From assembly GCF_014837045.1 (NCBI RefSeq), contig NZ_JACSPR010000002.1, positions 248,001 through 312,000 on the forward strand: a stretch of DNA of 64,000 nt, in the 5' to 3' direction. Below, in pieces: positions 44,859-53,430 of the stretch. Below the pieces are notes generated by a model. The model was given only the letters and a program-made list of their open reading frames with translations. It was not told the origin of the DNA and did not search any database. Numbering within the stretch: the stretch's first letter is position 1; each line of letters starts with the position of its first letter. Made by a program: the position numbers and the translations under genes. The DNA is from Corynebacterium gallinarum. GTDB lineage: Bacteria > Actinomycetota > Actinomycetes > Mycobacteriales > Mycobacteriaceae.

Positions 44859-44887
44859 TTGACCTTGGTGTGAAGAATTTCTAAAGT
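44859..44887 (+). promoter_or_regulatory. Promoter of the riboswitch-led cobalamin operon
   Basis: TTGACC (44859-44864), exactly 17 bases, TAAAGT (44882-44887). Start of transcription expected near 44894, at the 5' edge of the riboswitch. Confidence 0.65.
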
Positions 44888-44893
44888 ACAAGG

Positions 44894-45090
44894 TACCTAC
44901 TGTTTGTTATTGGGGGAAGTCCGGTGTGAATCCGGCGCTGACCCGCAACCGTGTGGTGCATTGTGCACCGAGTCGGAATACCCAGGACAAAACTGTTGGC
45001 TCACAACCGTCGAGGACTACGGTTCTGAAGCCCGTAGTCAGGCATGTCAGCCTTTCTTCCGGGATGCTCAGAAACGTTTCCCATAAAGAA
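44894..45090 (+). ncRNA. Cobalamin (B12) riboswitch
   Basis: Carries the conserved core GGTGTGAATCCGG, then GCTGACCCGCAACCGT (44937-44952), then GAGTCGGAATACC, as in the RF00174 class. The 3' part includes pairs able to form the kissing loop and expression-platform hairpins before the AAAGGGA ribosome-binding site of the gene at 45105. High cobalamin should repress the five-gene operon downstream. Confidence 0.92.
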
Positions 45091-45104
45091 AGGGACCTGC
45101 CTTC

Positions 45105-46313
45105 ATGGCATTTCTCGGGACACGCACCGCTGCCACAGCCCTGGCTCTGGCAACTGGCATCGCACTCATCACGCCCCACACCGCTGTTGCGGCAACACCC
45201 CCCACTGATTCCGAGCTCGAAAGCACCGCGGGCTTCCTGGCTGCCCAGCTCAGAAACAGCGAGAACGGGCTGTTGGATGGCCCGTTTTCGGGTAGGGCTG
45301 ACCTCGGCCTGACCGCGGATTTCATCTTCGCCCTCGATGCCCTGGACATGCATCATGACCAGGCTGATCGCAGCTATGAGGCAATGGTCAACAATGCTGA
45401 TGACTTCGTGTACTTCATGGGTGAGGTGGATGCAGGTCGTATGGCCAAGTTCGTCGCGCTGCAGAACACTCGCGGTGAGCGCAATGAGACCTACATTGCA
45501 GAACTCGTGGATGCGATCCAGGAGGATGGCCGCCTGATGAACGAAACAGACGGCGAACCCACCTCCAGCGCCCAGAATTTCTCCCAGTCCTGGGCCGTTA
45601 TCGCCCTGGCACGCGCTGGTGAGACTGAGGCTGCTGAGAAGGCCGCAGACTTCCTGGAGAGCCAGATCTGCGAGGATGGCGGCGTCCCACTGTTCCCCGC
45701 AACCCCACCGAGCTGCAGCTCCGTGGATCCTGATTCCACAGGTATGGCAGGCCAGGCCCTCGCACTGGTCCGGGGCGCCGATGCTCCCTCCACTGGGAGC
45801 GTCCTGCAGTACCTGCGTGACAACACCACCGAGGAAGGCGGCATCAACAGCCGGTTTGCCGGTATCAACGCCAACTCCACCGCCCTTGCCGCCAGTGCTT
45901 TTGCCTACGTCGGTGATCTGGGTGCTTTCGAGCGCAACCACGCCTTCCTGGATGCTGTACGTCTCGATGACTCCGCACCTGAGGATCTTCGTGGTGGATT
46001 CGCCTACAAGATCAGCGATGTGGACAAGGTAACCACCGTCACCGATCAGATCCGTCGCGTTACCGCGCAGGCCGCCCTCGGTTTTGCAGGTGGCAGCTAC
46101 GCCTCTTCTGACACCCTCTACCCGGTACAGGTTGATCCGGATCCGGTCGATCCGACCCCGACCGAACCCACCGAGCCCACCGAACCCGGTGACAGCAGCA
46201 ATGGCTCATCCACGGGTGGCATCTTCCTCGGCGTACTTGCCGCCATCGCCGCGGTCATCGCTGCGGTCATCGGCTTCACTGGTCCTGCATCTTTCCTCCC
46301 GGCACAGTTCTAG
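45105..46313 (+). CDS. Surface-anchored alpha/alpha-toroid protein, transcobalamin alpha-domain-like
   Basis: 402 residues. Signal peptide to about residue 29 (TALALATGIALITPHTAVAA). The mature part is a series of helical repeats of the prenyltransferase/terpene-cyclase type: GRADLGLTADFIFALDALDM, QSWAVIALARAGETEAAEKA, CEDGGVPLF, DSTGMAGQALALVRG and INANSTALAASAFAYVGDLG. A Pro/Thr/Glu linker and a C-terminal transmembrane helix (GGIFLGVLAAIAAVIAAVIG) anchor it. Human transcobalamin and intrinsic factor use the same barrel to bind cobalamin, and this gene sits directly under a B12 riboswitch. Cobalamin binding is therefore the likely role. Confidence 0.82.
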   Translation: MAFLGTRTAATALALATGIALITPHTAVAATPPTDSELESTAGFLAAQLRNSENGLLDGPFSGRADLGLTADFIFALDALDMHHDQADRSYEAMVNNADDFVYFMGEVDAGRMAKFVALQNTRGERNETYIAELVDAIQEDGRLMNETDGEPTSSAQNFSQSWAVIALARAGETEAAEKAADFLESQICEDGGVPLFPATPPSCSSVDPDSTGMAGQALALVRGADAPSTGSVLQYLRDNTTEEGGINSRFAGINANSTALAASAFAYVGDLGAFERNHAFLDAVRLDDSAPEDLRGGFAYKISDVDKVTTVTDQIRRVTAQAALGFAGGSYASSDTLYPVQVDPDPVDPTPTEPTEPTEPGDSSNGSSTGGIFLGVLAAIAAVIAAVIGFTGPASFLPAQF

Positions 46314-46323
46314 GAGTCAGATC

Positions 46324-47400
46324 ATGTTGAACCTCAACAGAATGACCGCTCGTGGCAGGCTGCTCACCATTACCATGGTGGCCTGGGTGGCCCTGGCCAT
46401 GTCACCGTGGGTACCCGCCGCCCAGGCAGCCACCACCACCCCGTGTTCGGACGATGAAGTCACCGTGATGGTGCAGGGCTACCCCACCACCTGCTCCCCC
46501 GCGGGCGGAACCGGATACCAGACCCTGATCAACGCCGGTTTTTCTGTTGAGGGGACCCAGAAATTTCCCGAATTCATCTGCCGGATCAACGGTTTCCCCG
46601 ATGCTGGTGTGGACAAGTGCCTCACCGCCTCTCCAGCCAGTGCCTACTGGACCTACTGGCATGCACCGCTGGGGGCCACTTCCTGGACCTACAGTGATTT
46701 CGGTGCCCACGCACGGTCCCCGCAGCCCGGCACCGTCGAAGCCTGGACTTGGGGCCCTGGCCTGGAACCAGGGCCGGTTCCGGTGAGCAGGTCCACGACC
46801 ACGACGGAGACCACCACTCGTTCCGGCAGCCTCCGGGACTCCCCCATGCCCACCGTCCCGGCCTTCACCTGGACTCCGGAAACTCCGCGCAATGATAAGG
46901 ACACCACCACGGCGGCCCAGTCCGGGGAGCCGACCCCGGAGCAGAATCCGGACAACCCGGATGAGGTGCTGGTCTTCCTCGATGCCGAGGGCAACCGGAT
47001 CTCGAAGCAGGAATACGACCAACTTGTGGCGTCCGCAGCCCAGGCTGCCCAGGCACGCACCGCGCCGGGTGCCGTGCCCGGTGGCAGTGCCCAGGCACCG
47101 GGCTCCCCCGGTGGCGCTGTATCCGCAGCCACCGGCACGGGCGAGTCTGCAGAGACCACCACCGAGGAACCCGACCCGAAGAGCACCCGCGTCATGACCG
47201 CCCCGGCCCTGGAGGACACCACCCAGCTGCTCGCCGATGGCCAGACGGTCATGCCCAACTACGACCCCACCACCAACGCGCAGGACACCGGCGGGTTATC
47301 CCAGGCCTGGACCATCGGGCTGGCCCTGGCGTTCATCGCCCTGTTCGGCGGGGCGGCCGCCGCCACCTGGGTGCTGCGTCGTGGGGAAGTCCACGGGTGA
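46324..47400 (+). CDS. Surface-anchored DUF4430 (transcobalamin beta-domain-like) protein
   Basis: 358 residues. Signal peptide (LLTITMVAWVALAMSPWVPA). The 120-residue domain after it contains GTGYQTLINAGF, FICRINGFP and ASAYWTYWHAPLGATSWTYS, ending PGTVEAWTW, the pattern of DUF4430, the C-terminal domain of transcobalamin-type proteins. A 180-residue Thr/Pro/Glu/Ala-rich stalk and a C-terminal transmembrane helix (TIGLALAFIALFGGAAAATW) follow. RBS AGGAG, ten bases after the preceding gene. Probably pairs with the toroid protein to enclose cobalamin. Confidence 0.8.
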   Translation: MLNLNRMTARGRLLTITMVAWVALAMSPWVPAAQAATTTPCSDDEVTVMVQGYPTTCSPAGGTGYQTLINAGFSVEGTQKFPEFICRINGFPDAGVDKCLTASPASAYWTYWHAPLGATSWTYSDFGAHARSPQPGTVEAWTWGPGLEPGPVPVSRSTTTTETTTRSGSLRDSPMPTVPAFTWTPETPRNDKDTTTAAQSGEPTPEQNPDNPDEVLVFLDAEGNRISKQEYDQLVASAAQAAQARTAPGAVPGGSAQAPGSPGGAVSAATGTGESAETTTEEPDPKSTRVMTAPALEDTTQLLADGQTVMPNYDPTTNAQDTGGLSQAWTIGLALAFIALFGGAAAATWVLRRGEVHG

Positions 47401-47458
47401 CCTATCCGGTTGCGGCCTCCCACCGTGGTGGCCACATAGTTGAAAAATGTGAAACACA

Positions 47459-48742
47459 GTGAAGACAATCAAGCGTTATCTCCTGTCCAGGCGTCTGATC
47501 CACCCCATGGCCTGGTGGGTGTGGGCCCTGGGTATCGCCGGGACCGTCAGCCTGACCACCAACCTCTACGTCCTGGCCATGGCGCTGGTCGTCCTGTGTT
47601 TCGTGGTTGCGCAACGTCGGGGTGCCTCCCCCTGGGCCCGGGCCTTCCCCATCTATTTCATCCTCTGCGGGTGGATCGTGGTCTACCGCGTGGTCATGCA
47701 CATCCTCGTCGGCGCCAAGATCGGCCAGCAGGAACTGTTCAGCATCCCCTCCATCGACCTTCCGGAGTGGGCGGCGGGCATCAATGTGTTCGGCACGGTC
47801 TATGCGGAGGGGCTGTTGATGAGCGCCACCCAGGGACTGGTGCTGGGCACCATGATCGTCGCGGTGGGTGCCGCCAACTCTCTTGCCGATCCGAAGAAGC
47901 TGGTCAAGGCACTGCCCGGCGCGCTGGGTGATCTGGGCACCGCCATTGTCATCGGTATCTCGATTGCCCCGCAGATGGCGGAATCGGCCTACCGCATCCA
48001 CCGGGCCCGCACCCTGCGCGGTGATGACACCGGCGGCATCCGTGGGTTCGCCCGGATCCTCATGCCCGTGTTCCAGGACACCCTGGACCGTTCACTCGCG
48101 CTGGCCAGTTCGCTGGATGCCCGCGGTTACGGTCGTCGCGCCGACACCCCGCTCATCGAACAGCGGATCACCTCCGCGTTCGGTGCCCTGGGCATCATCG
48201 GCGCCACCATCGGTATCTTCGTGGTGCTGGACGCCGGTGCCCCGATGTTCGTGGCGGTGCCGATCCTCATTGTGGGCGTCGGGTTCCTGGTGATCTCCCT
48301 GTTCATCGCTTCTCGACGAAAAACCTCCACCACCTACGACCAACTGCCGTGGGCCGGTGCGGAGTGGATCACCGCCCTCTCCGGGTTGGTTCCCCTCGCC
48401 GCCGCCCTGGTGGAATACAACCTCAATCCGACGTCGATGGTGACCACCTGGATCCCGCTGCACATGCCCACGCAGGTGCCTCTCCTGGTCATCCTGGGTC
48501 TGGTGGTCGCCACCGCCCCCGGTATCTTCACCCCCCGGTTGCCGCGCAATTCCTTCCGGGCCCGGCGCCGGACACCACGAGTGACCACCACACCAGACAC
48601 GACACCAGCTGAGACCACCCGGCGCGCACCTGCCGGCCGGGGCCACCGCAGGAACCCCGAGCTGGCAGCAGCGACCACCACCTTCCCGGTTGTCGCCACC
48701 GCCGCTGCCACGGCCCCCAAGAAAGAGGCGTTGCATGAGTAA
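47459..48742 (+). CDS. ECF transporter transmembrane (T) component
   Basis: 427 residues, about eight transmembrane helices. The EcfT signature is seen in SAYRIHRARTLRGDDTGGIR, FQDTLDRSLALASSLDARGY, the coupling helices that contact the ATPases. A Pro/Thr/Ala/Arg tail of about 60 residues is unusual. Starts at GTG 47459 without a clear ribosome-binding site. Ends overlapping the ATPase gene by eight bases. Part of a cobalamin (or cobalt) uptake system by context. Confidence 0.87.
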   Translation: MKTIKRYLLSRRLIHPMAWWVWALGIAGTVSLTTNLYVLAMALVVLCFVVAQRRGASPWARAFPIYFILCGWIVVYRVVMHILVGAKIGQQELFSIPSIDLPEWAAGINVFGTVYAEGLLMSATQGLVLGTMIVAVGAANSLADPKKLVKALPGALGDLGTAIVIGISIAPQMAESAYRIHRARTLRGDDTGGIRGFARILMPVFQDTLDRSLALASSLDARGYGRRADTPLIEQRITSAFGALGIIGATIGIFVVLDAGAPMFVAVPILIVGVGFLVISLFIASRRKTSTTYDQLPWAGAEWITALSGLVPLAAALVEYNLNPTSMVTTWIPLHMPTQVPLLVILGLVVATAPGIFTPRLPRNSFRARRRTPRVTTTPDTTPAETTRRAPAGRGHRRNPELAAATTTFPVVATAAATAPKKEALHE

Positions 48743-50522
48743 CCACCACCGCGTCACCGGGACCACCCGGACCACCGGTACCGCCGTGAAACGCGAGGCA
48801 TGGTCGGATGCCCCGGTCCTTGAGCTGGAGGATGTCTCCGCCTCCTACTACACCGATGAACGCACCCTGGACGAACCGCAGATCCACGGGGTCAATCTCA
48901 CGCTCCACGAAGGTGAGATCCTCCTGGTTCTCGGGCGCACCGGGTCGGGTAAATCCACCCTGCTCAACGCCATGACCGGCGCGATGCCGCATGCCACCGG
49001 TGGGCGTCTCGACGGCCATGTCCGCGTCGTCGGGCGCGACACCCGTGACTTCCCACCGCGTCTGCTCTCCGATGTGGTGGGTGTGGTCGGGCAGGATCCG
49101 GCGGCCACGTTTGTCACCAACACCGTGGAGGAGGAACTGGCCTACGGCATGGAGCAGCTGGGACTGCCCCCGGCGGTGATGAGCAAACGGGTGGAGGAGA
49201 CCCTCGACCTGCTCGGCATCGCCGAGCTGCGTGGTGTCCCCCTGTCCGAGCTGTCCGGTGGTGAACAGCAGCGCGTGGCCATCGGTGCGGTCCTGACCAC
49301 CCGACCGGCCCTGATGGTGCTCGATGAACCCACCAGCGCCCTGGACCCCAACGGCGCGGAGGATGTCCTGGCGACGGTGACCAAACTCGCCCACGACCTG
49401 GCCATGACGGTGGTGCTGGCCGAGCACCGCATTGAACGCGTCCTTCAGTATGTCGACCGCGTGGCCCACGTCGGCCAGGATGGTCGCGTCACCCTCGGCA
49501 CGCCGGCGGAGATCATGACCTCCGCGGATGTGGCTCCCCCGGTCATCGAACTGGGCCGCTGGGCGGGCTGGTCTCCCCTGCCGTTGTCCATCCGGGATGC
49601 CCGGAATCATTCCCACGCCATGCGCCGGCGCCTGTTCCAGCGGGGGCTCGTGGTGTCCAAGGTGCAGACCACCCGGCCGAACCCACTGCTCAGAGCGGAG
49701 GATGTCGTGGTGGACTTCCCGGAGATCCGTGCGGTCGACGGGGTGGATCTGACCCTCTATGAGGGTGAGGTCACCGTATTGATGGGCCGCAATGGGTGCG
49801 GGAAATCCTCCCTGTTGTGGGCTCTGCAGGGCACGGGTAAACGCAGCCAGGGCACGGTGTTCGTCCATGATGATGACGCCGCGGCACGCACACGCACCCG
49901 CAAGAACCGCGGTGGTGCCACCCCTGATTCACCGTGGTCGGATCCCCACCAGCTCAAACCCGCTGACCGTCGCCGCGTGGTGTCCATGGTGCCGCAGACA
50001 CCCACCGATATCCTCTATGAGTCCTCCGTCGGGCTGGAGCTACGCCGTTCCGACAAGGATGCCGCCGCCACGCCCGGCACCACCCGCGCCATCCTGGACA
50101 CCCTGGCTCCGAACATCCCCGATGAGATCCACCCGCGGGACCTCTCGGAGGGCCAGAAACTCTCCCTGGCTCTGTCCATCCAGCTGGCGGCACAACCACC
50201 GGTGGTGTTCTTCGATGAACCGACCCGTGGGCTGGATTACGCCGGAAAGAAATCCCTGTCGGACAGTTTCAAGGAACTGGCGCTGACCGGTCATGCGGTA
50301 CTGGTGGTCACCCACGATGTGGAATTCGCCGCCCTGTGCGCGGACCGGGTGCTGTTCATGGCGGCCGGGAAGATCGTCGCCGACGGCCCGGCCGTGGATA
50401 TCCTCGCGGCCTCCCCTGCCTATGCCCCGCAGGTGGCCAAGATCACCGCCGGCATCCAGGATCCGTCCTACTGGCTCACCGTGCCCGCGGTAAAGACCGC
50501 GCTAGGGGACGGTGCCCTGTGA
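48735..50522 (+). CDS. ECF transporter fused double ATPase (A-A')
   Basis: 595 residues with two ABC domains. The first has Walker A GRTGSGKST, signature LSGGEQQR and Walker B LMVLDEPTSALD. The second has Walker A GRNGCGKSS, signature LSEGQKLS (Glu for Gly) and Walker B VVFFDEPTRGLD. Fused A-A' proteins are common in actinobacterial ECF systems. ATG 48735 overlaps the T-component stop; RBS AAAGAGG. Confidence 0.93.
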   Translation: MSNHHRVTGTTRTTGTAVKREAWSDAPVLELEDVSASYYTDERTLDEPQIHGVNLTLHEGEILLVLGRTGSGKSTLLNAMTGAMPHATGGRLDGHVRVVGRDTRDFPPRLLSDVVGVVGQDPAATFVTNTVEEELAYGMEQLGLPPAVMSKRVEETLDLLGIAELRGVPLSELSGGEQQRVAIGAVLTTRPALMVLDEPTSALDPNGAEDVLATVTKLAHDLAMTVVLAEHRIERVLQYVDRVAHVGQDGRVTLGTPAEIMTSADVAPPVIELGRWAGWSPLPLSIRDARNHSHAMRRRLFQRGLVVSKVQTTRPNPLLRAEDVVVDFPEIRAVDGVDLTLYEGEVTVLMGRNGCGKSSLLWALQGTGKRSQGTVFVHDDDAAARTRTRKNRGGATPDSPWSDPHQLKPADRRRVVSMVPQTPTDILYESSVGLELRRSDKDAAATPGTTRAILDTLAPNIPDEIHPRDLSEGQKLSLALSIQLAAQPPVVFFDEPTRGLDYAGKKSLSDSFKELALTGHAVLVVTHDVEFAALCADRVLFMAAGKIVADGPAVDILAASPAYAPQVAKITAGIQDPSYWLTVPAVKTALGDGAL

Positions 50523-51304
50523 TCAGCGCTATCGCCCTCAAACCGAAGACCTACCTCACGCTGGGTGTGCTGGCGGTGTTGAGCATCATCATCTTCGTCT
50601 GGCCCCTGATTGTGAATCCGGAGTCGTTCCTCTCCGATGATGCGCAGGCGCCCCTCTACCTGGCGCTGGTGATCCCGCTGGTGCTCGCTGCGGTGATCTC
50701 CGAGATCAGTGAGGACGGTTTCGACGTCAAGGCCGTGGCCATGCTGGGTGTGCTCAGCGCCATGGTCGCGATCGTGCGTCCCTTCGGCGCGGGTACCGCC
50801 GGTTTCGAGGCCGTGTTCTTCATCCTCATCCTCGGCGGTCGCGCCTTCGGCCCCGGTTTCGGGTTCATCCTGGGCAACACCGGGTTGTTCGCCTCGGCGC
50901 TGCTCACAGCGGGTATCGGGCCCTGGCTGCCCTATCAGATGCTGGCCGCTGCCTGGGTGAGTTTCGGCGCCGGGCTCCTGCCACCATTGCGTGGCAAGAA
51001 GGAGACCATCATGATCATCATGTACGCGGTGGTCGCGGCTCTCGGGTACGGGTTCTTGATGAACATGAGCTTCTGGCCCTATGCCATCGGTGTGTCCACG
51101 GAACTGTCCTTCGTGCCGGGCGCCCCGGTGTGGGAGAACCTCCACACCTTTGTCCTCTTCACCCTGACCACGTCCCTGGGGTGGGATCTGGGTCGCGCGC
51201 TGTTCACCTCCGTGCTGCTGTTGCTCACCACCAAACCGGTGCTGGGTGCTTTACGACGCGCCAGCCGCCGCGCCGCGTTCGGTGTGGAGCGCAGCTTCAG
51301 CTGA
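50519..51304 (+). CDS. ECF transporter substrate-specific (S) component
   Basis: 261 residues with six or so hydrophobic helices: YLTLGVLAVLSIIIFVWPLI, ALVIPLVLAAVISEIS, AVAMLGVLSAMVAIVRPFG, FFILILGGRAFGPGFGFILG, FASALLTAGIGPWLPYQM and FVLFTLTTSLGWDLGRALFT. The GRAFGPGFGFxLGN segment is typical of S components. Start GTG overlaps the ATPase stop (GTGA), RBS AGGGGAC. Given the riboswitch and the transcobalamin-like proteins, cobalamin is the most likely substrate; cobinamide or cobalt are alternatives. Confidence 0.85.
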   Translation: MISAIALKPKTYLTLGVLAVLSIIIFVWPLIVNPESFLSDDAQAPLYLALVIPLVLAAVISEISEDGFDVKAVAMLGVLSAMVAIVRPFGAGTAGFEAVFFILILGGRAFGPGFGFILGNTGLFASALLTAGIGPWLPYQMLAAAWVSFGAGLLPPLRGKKETIMIIMYAVVAALGYGFLMNMSFWPYAIGVSTELSFVPGAPVWENLHTFVLFTLTTSLGWDLGRALFTSVLLLLTTKPVLGALRRASRRAAFGVERSFS

Positions 51305-51328: not shown

Positions 51329-52672
51329 CTACCAGCCCTCAGGTCCGGCGGAACCCGCCGGGTACTCCTCCAGCGGGACCTCGTCGTTGGCGAACGCCGT
51401 GAGCACGGGCTCCACGATCTCCCATGCCCGGGCCGGGGCGTCGGCGGGCACCTCGGCGGTCTCGCCCAGGTCGAGGATGGCACGCACCACCCGGCCGTAG
51501 GCCGTGAGCTTCGAGGGCACCAGCTCGGTGCGCAGGGTCGCACGCTGCAGGTTGTGGCTGTAGCCGTGGTCGGAGACATTCGCCTCGAGCACGACCTCGT
51601 CGGTGAAGGGGAAGATCAGACGGCTGCCCGGTTGCAGCTCGGTTTCCTCCGGGTAGCCCTCGCGCCGGTAGCAGATGGCGATCTCCCTGCGTGGATTCCC
51701 CAGTGCCTTGCCGGACCGCAGGGTGACGGGCACGCCACGCCAGCGATCGGTGTCCACGTGCGCGGTGAGCTGGAAGAGTGTCTCGGTCCCCCGCTCCGGA
51801 TCAACACCCTCCTCCTGTGCGTAGTCCGGCAACCGTTCGCCGTCCGCCTCGCCTGCGGTGTACCGGGCGCGGCGGAGGGAGTCGGGATCGATGTTGGTGG
51901 CGGCGAGAATGTCGGTGACCGTGTTGTCCGTGTCGGCGGCGAGGGCGTGGGCCATGACCTGCAACAGGTGGGATTGGAGCATGTCGCGCACCGCCCCGTT
52001 ATTGTCGTAGAACTCGGCGCGTCCCTCCAGGCCGAGGGATTCGTCATAGACAATCTCAATACTCTCGACTGCCTTACTGTTCCACCCGGCGGAGAAGATC
52101 GCATTCGCCCCCATCAGCCCGACCAGGTTCGACAGCGCGGTTTCGCAGTTGAAGTGGTCAACGCGGAAGATGTGCTCCTCGTCGGTGATCTTCCACAATT
52201 TCTCGTTGAGTTCGCGGGCGGTGTCCGCGTCCTCGCCGAAGGGTTTTTCCATGGCGAGCACGATGCCCTCGGGCAGGGTGACCCCGGCCAGGGCGTCGAC
52301 CGCCTCTGCGACCACTGCGGGCGACAGGGCGAAGTAGAGCACTGATCGGTCACCGGGTTCCTGGGAGTCGAGCAACTTCTGCAGCTCCGCAGGGTCGGTG
52401 GCATCCGACACCATGAAGGACGCATGCTCGGCCAGGCTGTCGACCACCCGGTCATCGACCTCTGTGTCTGATTCTGCGAGGGAGTCGCGCACCAGCTGCG
52501 GATAATCATCGATCTCCGAACGGCCCGAGGCGACGATGTTGATCCGGGTTCCCTTATACTCGCGGAGGTAACCCGCCATGCCGGGGATGAGCAGACGACG
52601 CACGAGATCTCCCGCGCCGCCGAGGATATAGAACGTCACGGTCTGCCGGTGGTCATGGCTTGTGGGATTCAT
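51329..52672 (-). CDS. Divergent glucose-6-phosphate dehydrogenase-like protein
   Basis: 447 residues, colinear with G6PDH: cofactor loop ILGGAGDLVRRLLIPGMAGY, VLAMEKPFGEDADTARELNE, FRVDHFNCETALSNLVGLMG, and NGAVRDMLQSHLLQVMAHAL with the catalytic-type His. In true enzymes the substrate motif is DHYLGK; here it is DHFNCE, so the phosphate-binding Tyr and Lys are replaced. Substrate specificity is probably different. TAGCGT six bases before ATG 52672 suggests a leaderless start, though it may also be read through from the riboswitch-led gene 39 bases upstream. Converges on the S-component gene. Confidence 0.8.
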   Translation of the reverse strand: MNPTSHDHRQTVTFYILGGAGDLVRRLLIPGMAGYLREYKGTRINIVASGRSEIDDYPQLVRDSLAESDTEVDDRVVDSLAEHASFMVSDATDPAELQKLLDSQEPGDRSVLYFALSPAVVAEAVDALAGVTLPEGIVLAMEKPFGEDADTARELNEKLWKITDEEHIFRVDHFNCETALSNLVGLMGANAIFSAGWNSKAVESIEIVYDESLGLEGRAEFYDNNGAVRDMLQSHLLQVMAHALAADTDNTVTDILAATNIDPDSLRRARYTAGEADGERLPDYAQEEGVDPERGTETLFQLTAHVDTDRWRGVPVTLRSGKALGNPRREIAICYRREGYPEETELQPGSRLIFPFTDEVVLEANVSDHGYSHNLQRATLRTELVPSKLTAYGRVVRAILDLGETAEVPADAPARAWEIVEPVLTAFANDEVPLEEYPAGSAGPEGW

Positions 52673-52711: not shown

Positions 52712-53317
52712 CTAAGAGGACAACCCCAGGATGGAGAACAGTCCGGACTGCAGGGCGGCGAAGATACCACCGAGCCTTCCCAGCAAGCCGCCGAGGACAC
52801 CACCCTGGGAGGAGCCCACAGAGGAGGATGCCTCAACCGGCGCGGGCAGCTGCACCAGTGCCGGGGCGACGGAACCGTCGCTGACCGACCAGGCCTCGAC
52901 GGTGCCGGCCTCCGGAGTGGAGATGGATGCACCCACCATGTAGGACTCGTAGGCCACGCTGTAGTCCTCGGCCACGGTGCCATTCCAGTAGCTCCAGAAA
53001 ACCGGGTTCTCCGCGGTCCAGGTCGGTGCGACACCATCAATGCCGGTGAGGAAGCGCCCGAAGTCGCTCTCGGAGTAGGTGACCTCAAAGCCTGCGGATT
53101 CAAGTGCCTCGAAACCGTTGCTGAATTCAGTGGCGCAGGCACCGGTGGGCTCCTTGTCGGAATCCTCACCGTATTCGACGTAGACCCAGACGTTGTCGGC
53201 ATCGACACAGTCGCGGGCGGTGGTGAACTCAGCGGCCTGTGCGGCCGGAAGGAGAGCAAGGGTGGTGGCGGTCGCGGCAACCAGGGTGGTGGCCATGCGA
53301 CGGGTGGTGGTGTTCAA
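52712..53317 (-). CDS. Secreted DUF4430 (transcobalamin beta-domain-like) protein
   Basis: 201 residues. Signal peptide (MATTLVAATATTLALLPAAQ, cleaved near AQAAEF). One DUF4430-type domain: FSNGFEALESAGFEVTYSES, FLTGIDGV, NPVFWSYWNGTVAEDYSVAY, TPEAGTVEAWSV, closely matching the beta-domain protein at 46324. A Gly/Leu-rich hydrophobic tail (GVLGGLLGRLGGIFAALQSG) may hold it to the membrane. TTG 53317 has AAAGG nine bases upstream. A cobalamin-riboswitch-like leader precedes it, so it is probably part of the same uptake system. Confidence 0.75.
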   Translation of the reverse strand: MNTTTRRMATTLVAATATTLALLPAAQAAEFTTARDCVDADNVWVYVEYGEDSDKEPTGACATEFSNGFEALESAGFEVTYSESDFGRFLTGIDGVAPTWTAENPVFWSYWNGTVAEDYSVAYESYMVGASISTPEAGTVEAWSVSDGSVAPALVQLPAPVEASSSVGSSQGGVLGGLLGRLGGIFAALQSGLFSILGLSS

Positions 53318-53339
53318 GGTCGTTCGCCTTTCGGAAAAG

Positions 53340-53430
53340 CACTGTGCAGGGATCCGGCTCTACGGTTGCGGGACAGCTACGGACTTGCTTGCGTATTCAC
53401 CATGCACGGTGGGGGATGAAATACGGACGG
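53340..53430 (-). ncRNA. Second cobalamin riboswitch-like leader
   Basis: Minus strand contains GGTGAATACGC, AAGTCCGT, then AGCTGTCCCGCAACCGT (53362-53378) and GAGCCGGATCCC. The GCTGwCCCGCAACCGT core matches the first riboswitch at 15 of 16 positions. The upstream part is less typical, so the exact 5' boundary is uncertain. Leads into the DUF4430 gene at 53317. Confidence 0.7.

Follow-up and report, generated by a model that had tools for sequence, protein, structure and literature searches.

The stretch of Corynebacterium gallinarum DNA analyzed here (64,000 nucleotides, hereafter the window) carries on its + strand an operon made up of a cobalamin riboswitch and five genes, which encode, in this order, a secreted α/α toroid (P1), a secreted β-domain protein (P2), and the predicted T, A-A′, and S components of an energy-coupling factor (ECF) transporter. 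We estimate at roughly 0.7 the probability that this operon specifies an importer of a corrinoid, most likely cobalamin (vitamin B12), fed by a two-part clamp at the cell surface, the import of B12 being the likelier part of this reading and the cooperation of the two surface proteins the less likely one. An initial annotation of the window had placed this gene set under one riboswitch; the gene set was confirmed, and the arrangement recurs in many genomes. The same annotation had proposed a split transcobalamin-like pair serving an ECF importer, which is upheld in part: the predicted fold of P2, the riboswitch, the B12-dependent enzymes of the genome, and the lack of a CbiC match speak for it, while the toroid match of P1 is less specific.

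The system may be pictured as follows. When B12 is scarce, the riboswitch would permit translation of P1 and of the downstream genes, as suggested by the riboswitch family and by a predicted hairpin sequestering the Shine-Dalgarno sequence. P1 and P2 would reside outside the membrane and hold one corrinoid between them as in transcobalamin, a step proposed from fold, co-occurrence, and natural fusions. By analogy with known ECF transporters, the corrinoid would be handed from P1/P2 to S, and uptake would be driven by T and A-A′ with ATP.

Predicted structure of P2

P2 (46324–47400, + strand) is a secreted β-domain protein with a low-complexity stalk and a C-terminal membrane anchor (hydrophobic segment at residues 333–351); its N-terminus resembles a signal peptide by eye. 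Its assignment as the transcobalamin β-domain-like half of the putative clamp is based on an AlphaFold2 (AF2) model and on Foldseek and VIA comparisons. The model is reliable over the ectodomain, approximately residues 41–160, and over one stretch near residues 201–240, and not elsewhere. The strands (E) and helix (H) follow one another in the order E45–50, E56–59, H64–70, E75–77, and E85–88, then E109–115, E122–124, and E137–143. A β-hairpin inserted after the helix is, according to Burroughs et al. (PMC1796856), the mark of the transcobalamin-like clade, and the predicted model of P2 displays such an insert, as expected of a transcobalamin-like β-grasp (SLBB) domain.

When the model was compared with known structures by Foldseek, ranks 1–16 of 428 rows were all occupied by transcobalamin (TC), haptocorrin (HC), or intrinsic factor (IF), the best E-value being 1.2e-3 and none falling under 0.001. 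In VIA, 14 TC/HC/IF entries superimposed with Z-scores of 8.2–8.9 and r.m.s. deviations of 2.8–3.4 over 89–91 residues. They were followed by Ruminococcus gnavus 3u7z at Z 8.0 and then by other folds at 5.6, so that a clear gap separates the TC/HC/IF-like matches of the predicted structure from other folds. The P2 family shares four conserved cysteines, present in 43, 44, 44, and 44 of its 44 members. The P2 profile A7 had matches in 106 of 197 genomes of the class, many of them over a short stretch only. In one of the genomes, two P2-family matches (G154:C4:3458250-3458696 and 3461771-3462253) lie within open frames of 1048 and 1228 amino acids, possibly further multi-domain fusions.

Predicted structure of P1

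P1 (45105–46313, + strand) is a secreted α/α toroid and the candidate for the transcobalamin α-domain-like half, on the evidence of its AF2 model, of Foldseek and VIA comparisons, and of Pfam toroid families matched by its homologues. In the AF2 model it adopts an (α/α)6 toroid, with a mean pLDDT of 84.7. Intrinsic factor appears at rank 18 of the Foldseek results and transcobalamin at ranks 35, 38, and 42; neither is among the 50 rows listed for VIA, and both may rank further down. PF01122 (Cobalamin_bind), the eukaryotic cobalamin-binding family, was matched by 8 of 45 P1 members at E-values up to 1 (best 0.0044), with three scored matches of 9.8–11.3 bits against a cut-off of 25, and it had no match in the window P1. 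P1 is thus proposed as the transcobalamin-type half because of the company it keeps rather than because of its own similarity. The DxDD sequence is the acid motif of class II terpene cyclases. None of the 45 P1 members carries it at the aligned position, and three have it elsewhere in the sequence; judging from these sequences, P1 is a toroid without the cyclase acid motif.

P1 had been described in the initial annotation as membrane-anchored. This holds for the window copy, which has a C-terminal hydrophobic segment at residues 373–391 in addition to an N-terminus that looks like a signal peptide by eye, but it is not general, since several homologues end without an anchor. LPxTG-like C-termini, recognized by eye in the P1 homologue of locus L037 and scoring just or well under the curated cut-offs in those of L114 and L087, are absent from other P1 proteins. 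A survey with the single P1 sequence gave matches in 18 of 197 genomes of the class (in one of them, G182, only at residues 292–392) and in 15 of 121 genomes of the genus; the toroid is covered in five of these 15 (G000, G240, G242, G286, and G206), and only the Pro/Thr-rich tail in the other 10.

The ECF module and B12 use in the genome

The three genes that follow P2 overlap by a few bases. The first encodes an EcfT-like transmembrane protein, T (47459–48742, + strand), which matches CbiQ (PF02361) at 27.8 bits, above the cut-off of 25. The second encodes A-A′ (48735–50522, + strand), a fused ATPase with two ABC domains, as testified by two stretches matching ABC_tran (E 2.4e-47); its scores against ECF ATPase models lie below the cut-offs of those models. 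The third encodes the predicted S component (50519–51304, + strand), recognized from six hydrophobic segments in its hydropathy profile, from a homologue in locus L038, and from the family alignment A3. The window S protein itself has no Pfam match; its L038 homologue reaches 39.8 bits with ECF_trnsprt, whose cut-off is 30.7. Together, a T protein, two ABC ATPase domains, and an S protein, the last identified through this homologue, make up the set expected of an ECF transporter. Neither CbiM nor CbiN is found among the Pfam rows listed for the five operon proteins.

The genome, of 3.12 Mb in 33 contigs, encodes a MetH B12-activation domain, at which a TAA marks the natural end of the gene, and two subunits of methylmalonyl-CoA mutase, and it has no match to the B12-synthesis enzyme CbiC, the sole synthesis marker tested. 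The presence of the two B12-dependent enzymes and the absence of CbiC fit a B12 user that depends on import. In a comparison with the literature, the genes cg0622–cg0625 of Corynebacterium glutamicum resemble the window genes in gene order and annotation. This resemblance and the ribosomal-protein genes nearby both point to the genus Corynebacterium. These likely orthologues are annotated in the available records as cobalt transport, and the counterpart of P1 as a “putative terpenoide cylase.”

Riboswitch and predicted control of the operon

The B12 riboswitch placed over the operon by the initial annotation was borne out by RF01482 (clan CL00101), the AdoCbl (cobalamin) riboswitch model, which matches the + strand at 44889–45035 with 54.3 bits (gathering threshold 50, E 3.4e-7). 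Our own model R1, built from 20 instances among which is the window copy, scores 99.4 bits at 44885–45005. In a genome-wide scan with RF00174 alone, the window riboswitch was the one match over the cut-off (31.8 against 31.5 bits). A second cobalamin riboswitch candidate of the same genome (G000:C2:19817-19956, locus L138) scores 17.7 bits with RF00174, below the threshold.

Upstream of the aptamer, promoter-like hexamers, TTGACC-17-TAAAGT, were picked out by a consensus scan at 44859–44887 (+ strand). Downstream, the minimum free energy fold of the leader contains a hairpin (45041–45101, + strand) in which the Shine-Dalgarno stretch of P1 is base-paired. Its z-score, for this one species' sequence, is −2.05, equal stability being reached in 8 of 200 shuffles. 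The pairing of the Shine-Dalgarno stretch in this predicted stem suggests translational control of P1. In C. glutamicum, an MprA binding site has been reported upstream of cg0625 (PMC12113857), and the mRNAs of cg0622–cg0625 and of metE are both decreased in a copRS mutant exposed to copper (PMC3140484). If these genes are indeed orthologous, as gene order and annotation make likely, the operon may be under control beyond that of the riboswitch.

Co-occurrence of P1, P2, and the riboswitch

We scanned the genomes of 84,980 species through the S family, confirmed at least 535 relatives, and kept the best 80 loci (designated L), none of which is titled Corynebacterium. Twenty loci in which the S gene is preceded by less than 7 kb were left out, and counts are given for the remaining 60. 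A P2-type protein is present in 59 of them, accompanied by a P1-type toroid in 48; the remaining locus, L079, has neither, and its genome contains P1-like matches found by whole-genome search. The 48 include L132, in which a divergent P1 was found with profile A1 at ~1398, between the riboswitch and P2. A cobalamin riboswitch lies just upstream in 56 of the 60 loci, 55 assigned by rule plus L132, whose riboswitch directly precedes P1. Among the 45 loci outside the training set of R1, the rule placed a riboswitch upstream in 40. A riboswitch suggested by a coordinate match at L066 1704–1881 was discarded after inspection of the alignment.

The copy numbers of P1 and P2 rise together over 54 loci, with a Spearman coefficient of 0.59, uncorrected for relatedness. 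A tandem P1-P2-P1-P2 organization with a riboswitch before each pair is observed in L037, L114, L120, L131, and L136. In other actinobacteria, P2 is a near-constant partner. P1 is more variable: some copies carry a membrane anchor and others do not, some are fused to P2 or lie elsewhere in the genome, and in some cases none was detected.

Fused and putatively permuted forms

In six loci, P1 and P2 are fused in a single open frame. The fusion of L071 (P0005, from a Nocardioidaceae bin) consists of a signal-like N-terminus, the toroid, a short linker, the β domain, a stalk, and a membrane anchor, and it is the one clean case with the domain order of transcobalamin. L070 has the toroid followed by the β domain, with a hydrophobic segment between the halves, and in L066, L094, L105, and L078 the β domain precedes the toroid. 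Four of the six (L070, L071, L078, and L094) come from metagenome bins, and the order in L071 is known from one genome. The reading of P1 and P2 as a split pair is strengthened by these natural fusions and by the co-occurrence of the two proteins in other genomes.

In 12 loci (L044, L048–L052, L102, L111, L122, L124, L125, and L134), the order of the profile matches is reversed in both P1 and P2, as in a circular permutation. When the halves of P1 were exchanged and scored with profiles built from canonical members only, the score rose by 31–43 bits in 10 of the 12 loci, with L044 and L125 gaining 0.2 and 1.9 bits; the same exchange lowered the P1 score in 8 of 8 canonical controls. For P2, the exchange scored with canonical-only profiles raised the score in 4 of 14 cases (by 2–6 bits) and lowered it in 10, and the permutation of P2 is not supported by that test. 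We read P2 as permuted because of an iterated profile that included permuted members and of a profile-profile alignment, in which the permuted first half aligns with the canonical second half at 98.1% and the permuted second half with the canonical first half at 94.0%.

Automatic labeling gave eight loci with both proteins permuted, three with P2 only (L049, L090, and L125), one with P1 only (L050), and 59 with neither. L044, L049, L050, and L125 were reassigned by eye to the first class from their domain ranges; outside the 12 stand L090, where the contig ends within P1, and L112, with no P1 in reach. After this reading by eye, wherever both proteins are seen, either both are permuted or neither is. 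Mapped onto the S tree, 12 permuted rows (L090 and L112 included, L048 and L051 absent) require three changes where the least number forced is two, with rows in which P1/P2 were unseen, such as L110, L081, L100, and L129, counted as canonical. The permuted rows cluster in the S tree, possibly from more than one origin.

The NCBIfam families SCO2321_fam and SCO2322_fam are matched over the cut-off by the permuted P1 of L134 and by the permuted P2 of L049 and L048. Against these families, the window P1 reaches 62.7 bits where the cut-off is 300, and the window P2 has no match. From these three loci we infer that the two families stand for the permuted form.

Evidence against the proposed clamp and alternative explanations

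Several results weigh against the proposed clamp. P2 had initially been annotated as DUF4430, a Pfam name that we rejected at the sequence level: PF14478 matches 0 of 17 and 0 of 44 P2-family members and nothing in the genome of origin, and no Pfam family at all matches the window P2. Since sequence profiles fail, the relation of P2 to DUF4430 and to transcobalamin is one of fold only. Searches of the Protein Data Bank (PDB) with A1, A2, A7, A8, and the fused P0005 gave no TC/HC/IF among the matches listed (60 of 71 for A8), and, with no sequence route to transcobalamin, the link to it rests on predicted folds. The S profile A3 found no solved chain in the PDB, that of ECF-CbrT included, at E-values up to 1, and a fold may nevertheless be shared. 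There is no riboswitch just upstream in 4 of the 60 loci (L060, L088, L105, whose operon start lies at the locus edge, and L125), and the compound transported could be cobinamide or a different corrinoid. P2 stands without a detected P1 in 11 of the 60 loci; whole-genome searches located P1 elsewhere in five of these genomes (G326, G328, G337, G341, and G365) and nowhere in the other six, whose assemblies are possibly incomplete. Given these P2-only loci and genomes without a found P1, P1 may not be essential. The predicted fold of P1 is also matched equally well or better by toroids of the squalene-cyclase type, by prenyltransferases, and by sugar enzymes (VIA Z-scores of up to 25.8). In sequence, too, the P1 family is nearest to squalene-cyclase-type toroids, which are matched by 36 of the 45 members at E-values up to 1.

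The wider occurrence of P2 (59 loci against 48 for P1) and the six genomes in which P1 was not found would suit a B12 importer in which P2, together with S, captures the corrinoid alone and P1 has an accessory role such as that of a spacer in the cell wall or of a processing factor. We hold this to be rather improbable, as the two proteins are fused in six loci, are read as permuted together, and are correlated in copy number, and as four of the five separate P1 genes of P2-only genomes (L144, L145, L147, and L148, not L143) have a strong cobalamin riboswitch match of their own. That P1 is instead a terpene-cyclase-like or other toroid enzyme, linked to transcobalamin by a common fold only, would agree with the squalene-hopene cyclase-type toroids being its best matches in sequence and fold, as with the terpenoid cyclase annotation in C. 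glutamicum. The absence of DxDD at the aligned position from all 45 members, the secretion-type N-terminus of P1, and its location with P2 under a cobalamin riboswitch make this quite unlikely. The CbiQ match of T and the cobalt transport annotation of the likely C. glutamicum orthologues could also point to an ECF module that imports cobalt under B12 control, the surface proteins having another role. This we consider very unlikely: CbiM and CbiN are absent from the listed Pfam rows, the S homologue falls in the general ECF S family, P2 has the predicted fold of a B12 carrier, and a genome that lacks CbiC would have little use for imported cobalt in making B12. A B12 importer with P1 and P2 acting as a surface clamp is preferred over these three explanations.

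A second β-domain gene downstream of the operon

A second P2-family protein, P4, is encoded convergently with the operon at 52712–53317 (− strand). It was recognized with an iterated P2 profile (E 9.8e-38) and with A7, in which it is not included (59.1 bits), and a hydropathy scan revealed no membrane anchor. Upstream of it, at 53331–53430 (− strand), lies a degenerate cobalamin riboswitch that was not in the training set of R1, as testified by an R1 score of 23.4 bits (E 1.7e-6); its AdoCbl-II score of 17.4 bits is below the gathering threshold. The gap between the end of this riboswitch and the P4 gene is 14 bases. Relatives of P4 in L053 and L055, two genomes of the same genus, are preceded by R1 matches of 89.3 and 67.5 bits. 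A glucose-6-phosphate dehydrogenase-like gene (51329–52672, − strand; NF009492, 542 bits) is located between the operon and P4.

A more far-reaching proposal would be that actinobacteria possess an obligate two-chain transcobalamin, with both chains jointly permuted in one lineage and the halves evolving as a single binding unit, and that P4 is an exchangeable partner or a corrinoid shuttle. We regard it as tentative, with somewhat less than even odds.

Implications and comparison with known systems

The operon provides a concrete candidate for the capture of B12 in numerous actinobacteria, including Micromonospora, Streptomyces, and, by inference, Corynebacterium species, and concerns genes whose present annotations read terpene cyclase, cobalt transport, or “SCO2321 family.” If our reading is true, bacteria possess an equivalent of the animal B12 carrier that comes as two pieces which can be studied apart. 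One could then test directly what either half contributes and how a carrier delivers B12 to an ECF S component, and the joint circular permutation would be a natural experiment on the construction of the clamp.

The general idea is less novel than the initial annotation implied. In 2007, Burroughs et al. (PMC1796856) described bacterial transcobalamin-like β-grasp domains, often fused to toroids and encoded beside CbiO/CbiQ genes, and proposed them as scavengers of B12 or its precursors. Their proposal chiefly concerns low-GC Gram-positives and bacteria without key B12-synthesis enzymes; an alignment legend includes C. glutamicum. The words “riboswitch,” “circular,” and “permut” are absent from its main text. 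New here are a divergent, usually split actinobacterial family, missed by the Pfam model and almost invariably linked to cobalamin riboswitches and to a single S family, the permutation of P1 and P2 together, and the riboswitch-linked P4. On the joint permutation, nothing was found in the literature covered, which excludes preprints and most subscription papers.

Vertebrate transcobalamin, haptocorrin, and intrinsic factor, the best fold matches of P2, are likewise composed of a toroid and a β-grasp domain with a β-hairpin insert after the helix; they differ from the present system, in which the two parts are separate bacterial surface proteins encoded in an importer operon, with P2 profiles that find no match to them in sequence. 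With the SLBB proteins of Burroughs et al. and PF14478, the window system shares surface location, fusion to a toroid on either side, CbiO- and CbiQ-like operons, and predicted B12 scavenging, whereas the window family is not recognized by PF14478 and mostly consists of two separate proteins. In acI Actinobacteria, a 2017 genome paper (PMC5301498) proposed an ECF module preceded by a riboswitch as a cobalamin transporter; it resembles the window operon in lying under cobalamin/AdoCbl riboswitches in actinobacteria without a B12 pathway, and differs in that the available portion of the paper mentions no transcobalamin-like surface proteins. ECF-CbrT of Lactobacillus delbrueckii (PMC5997447) is a demonstrated ECF importer of cobalamin and cobinamide. 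It is alike in being of the ECF type; the sections of that report at hand describe no capture proteins for it, and, unlike it, the window system has T, A-A′, and S in one operon.

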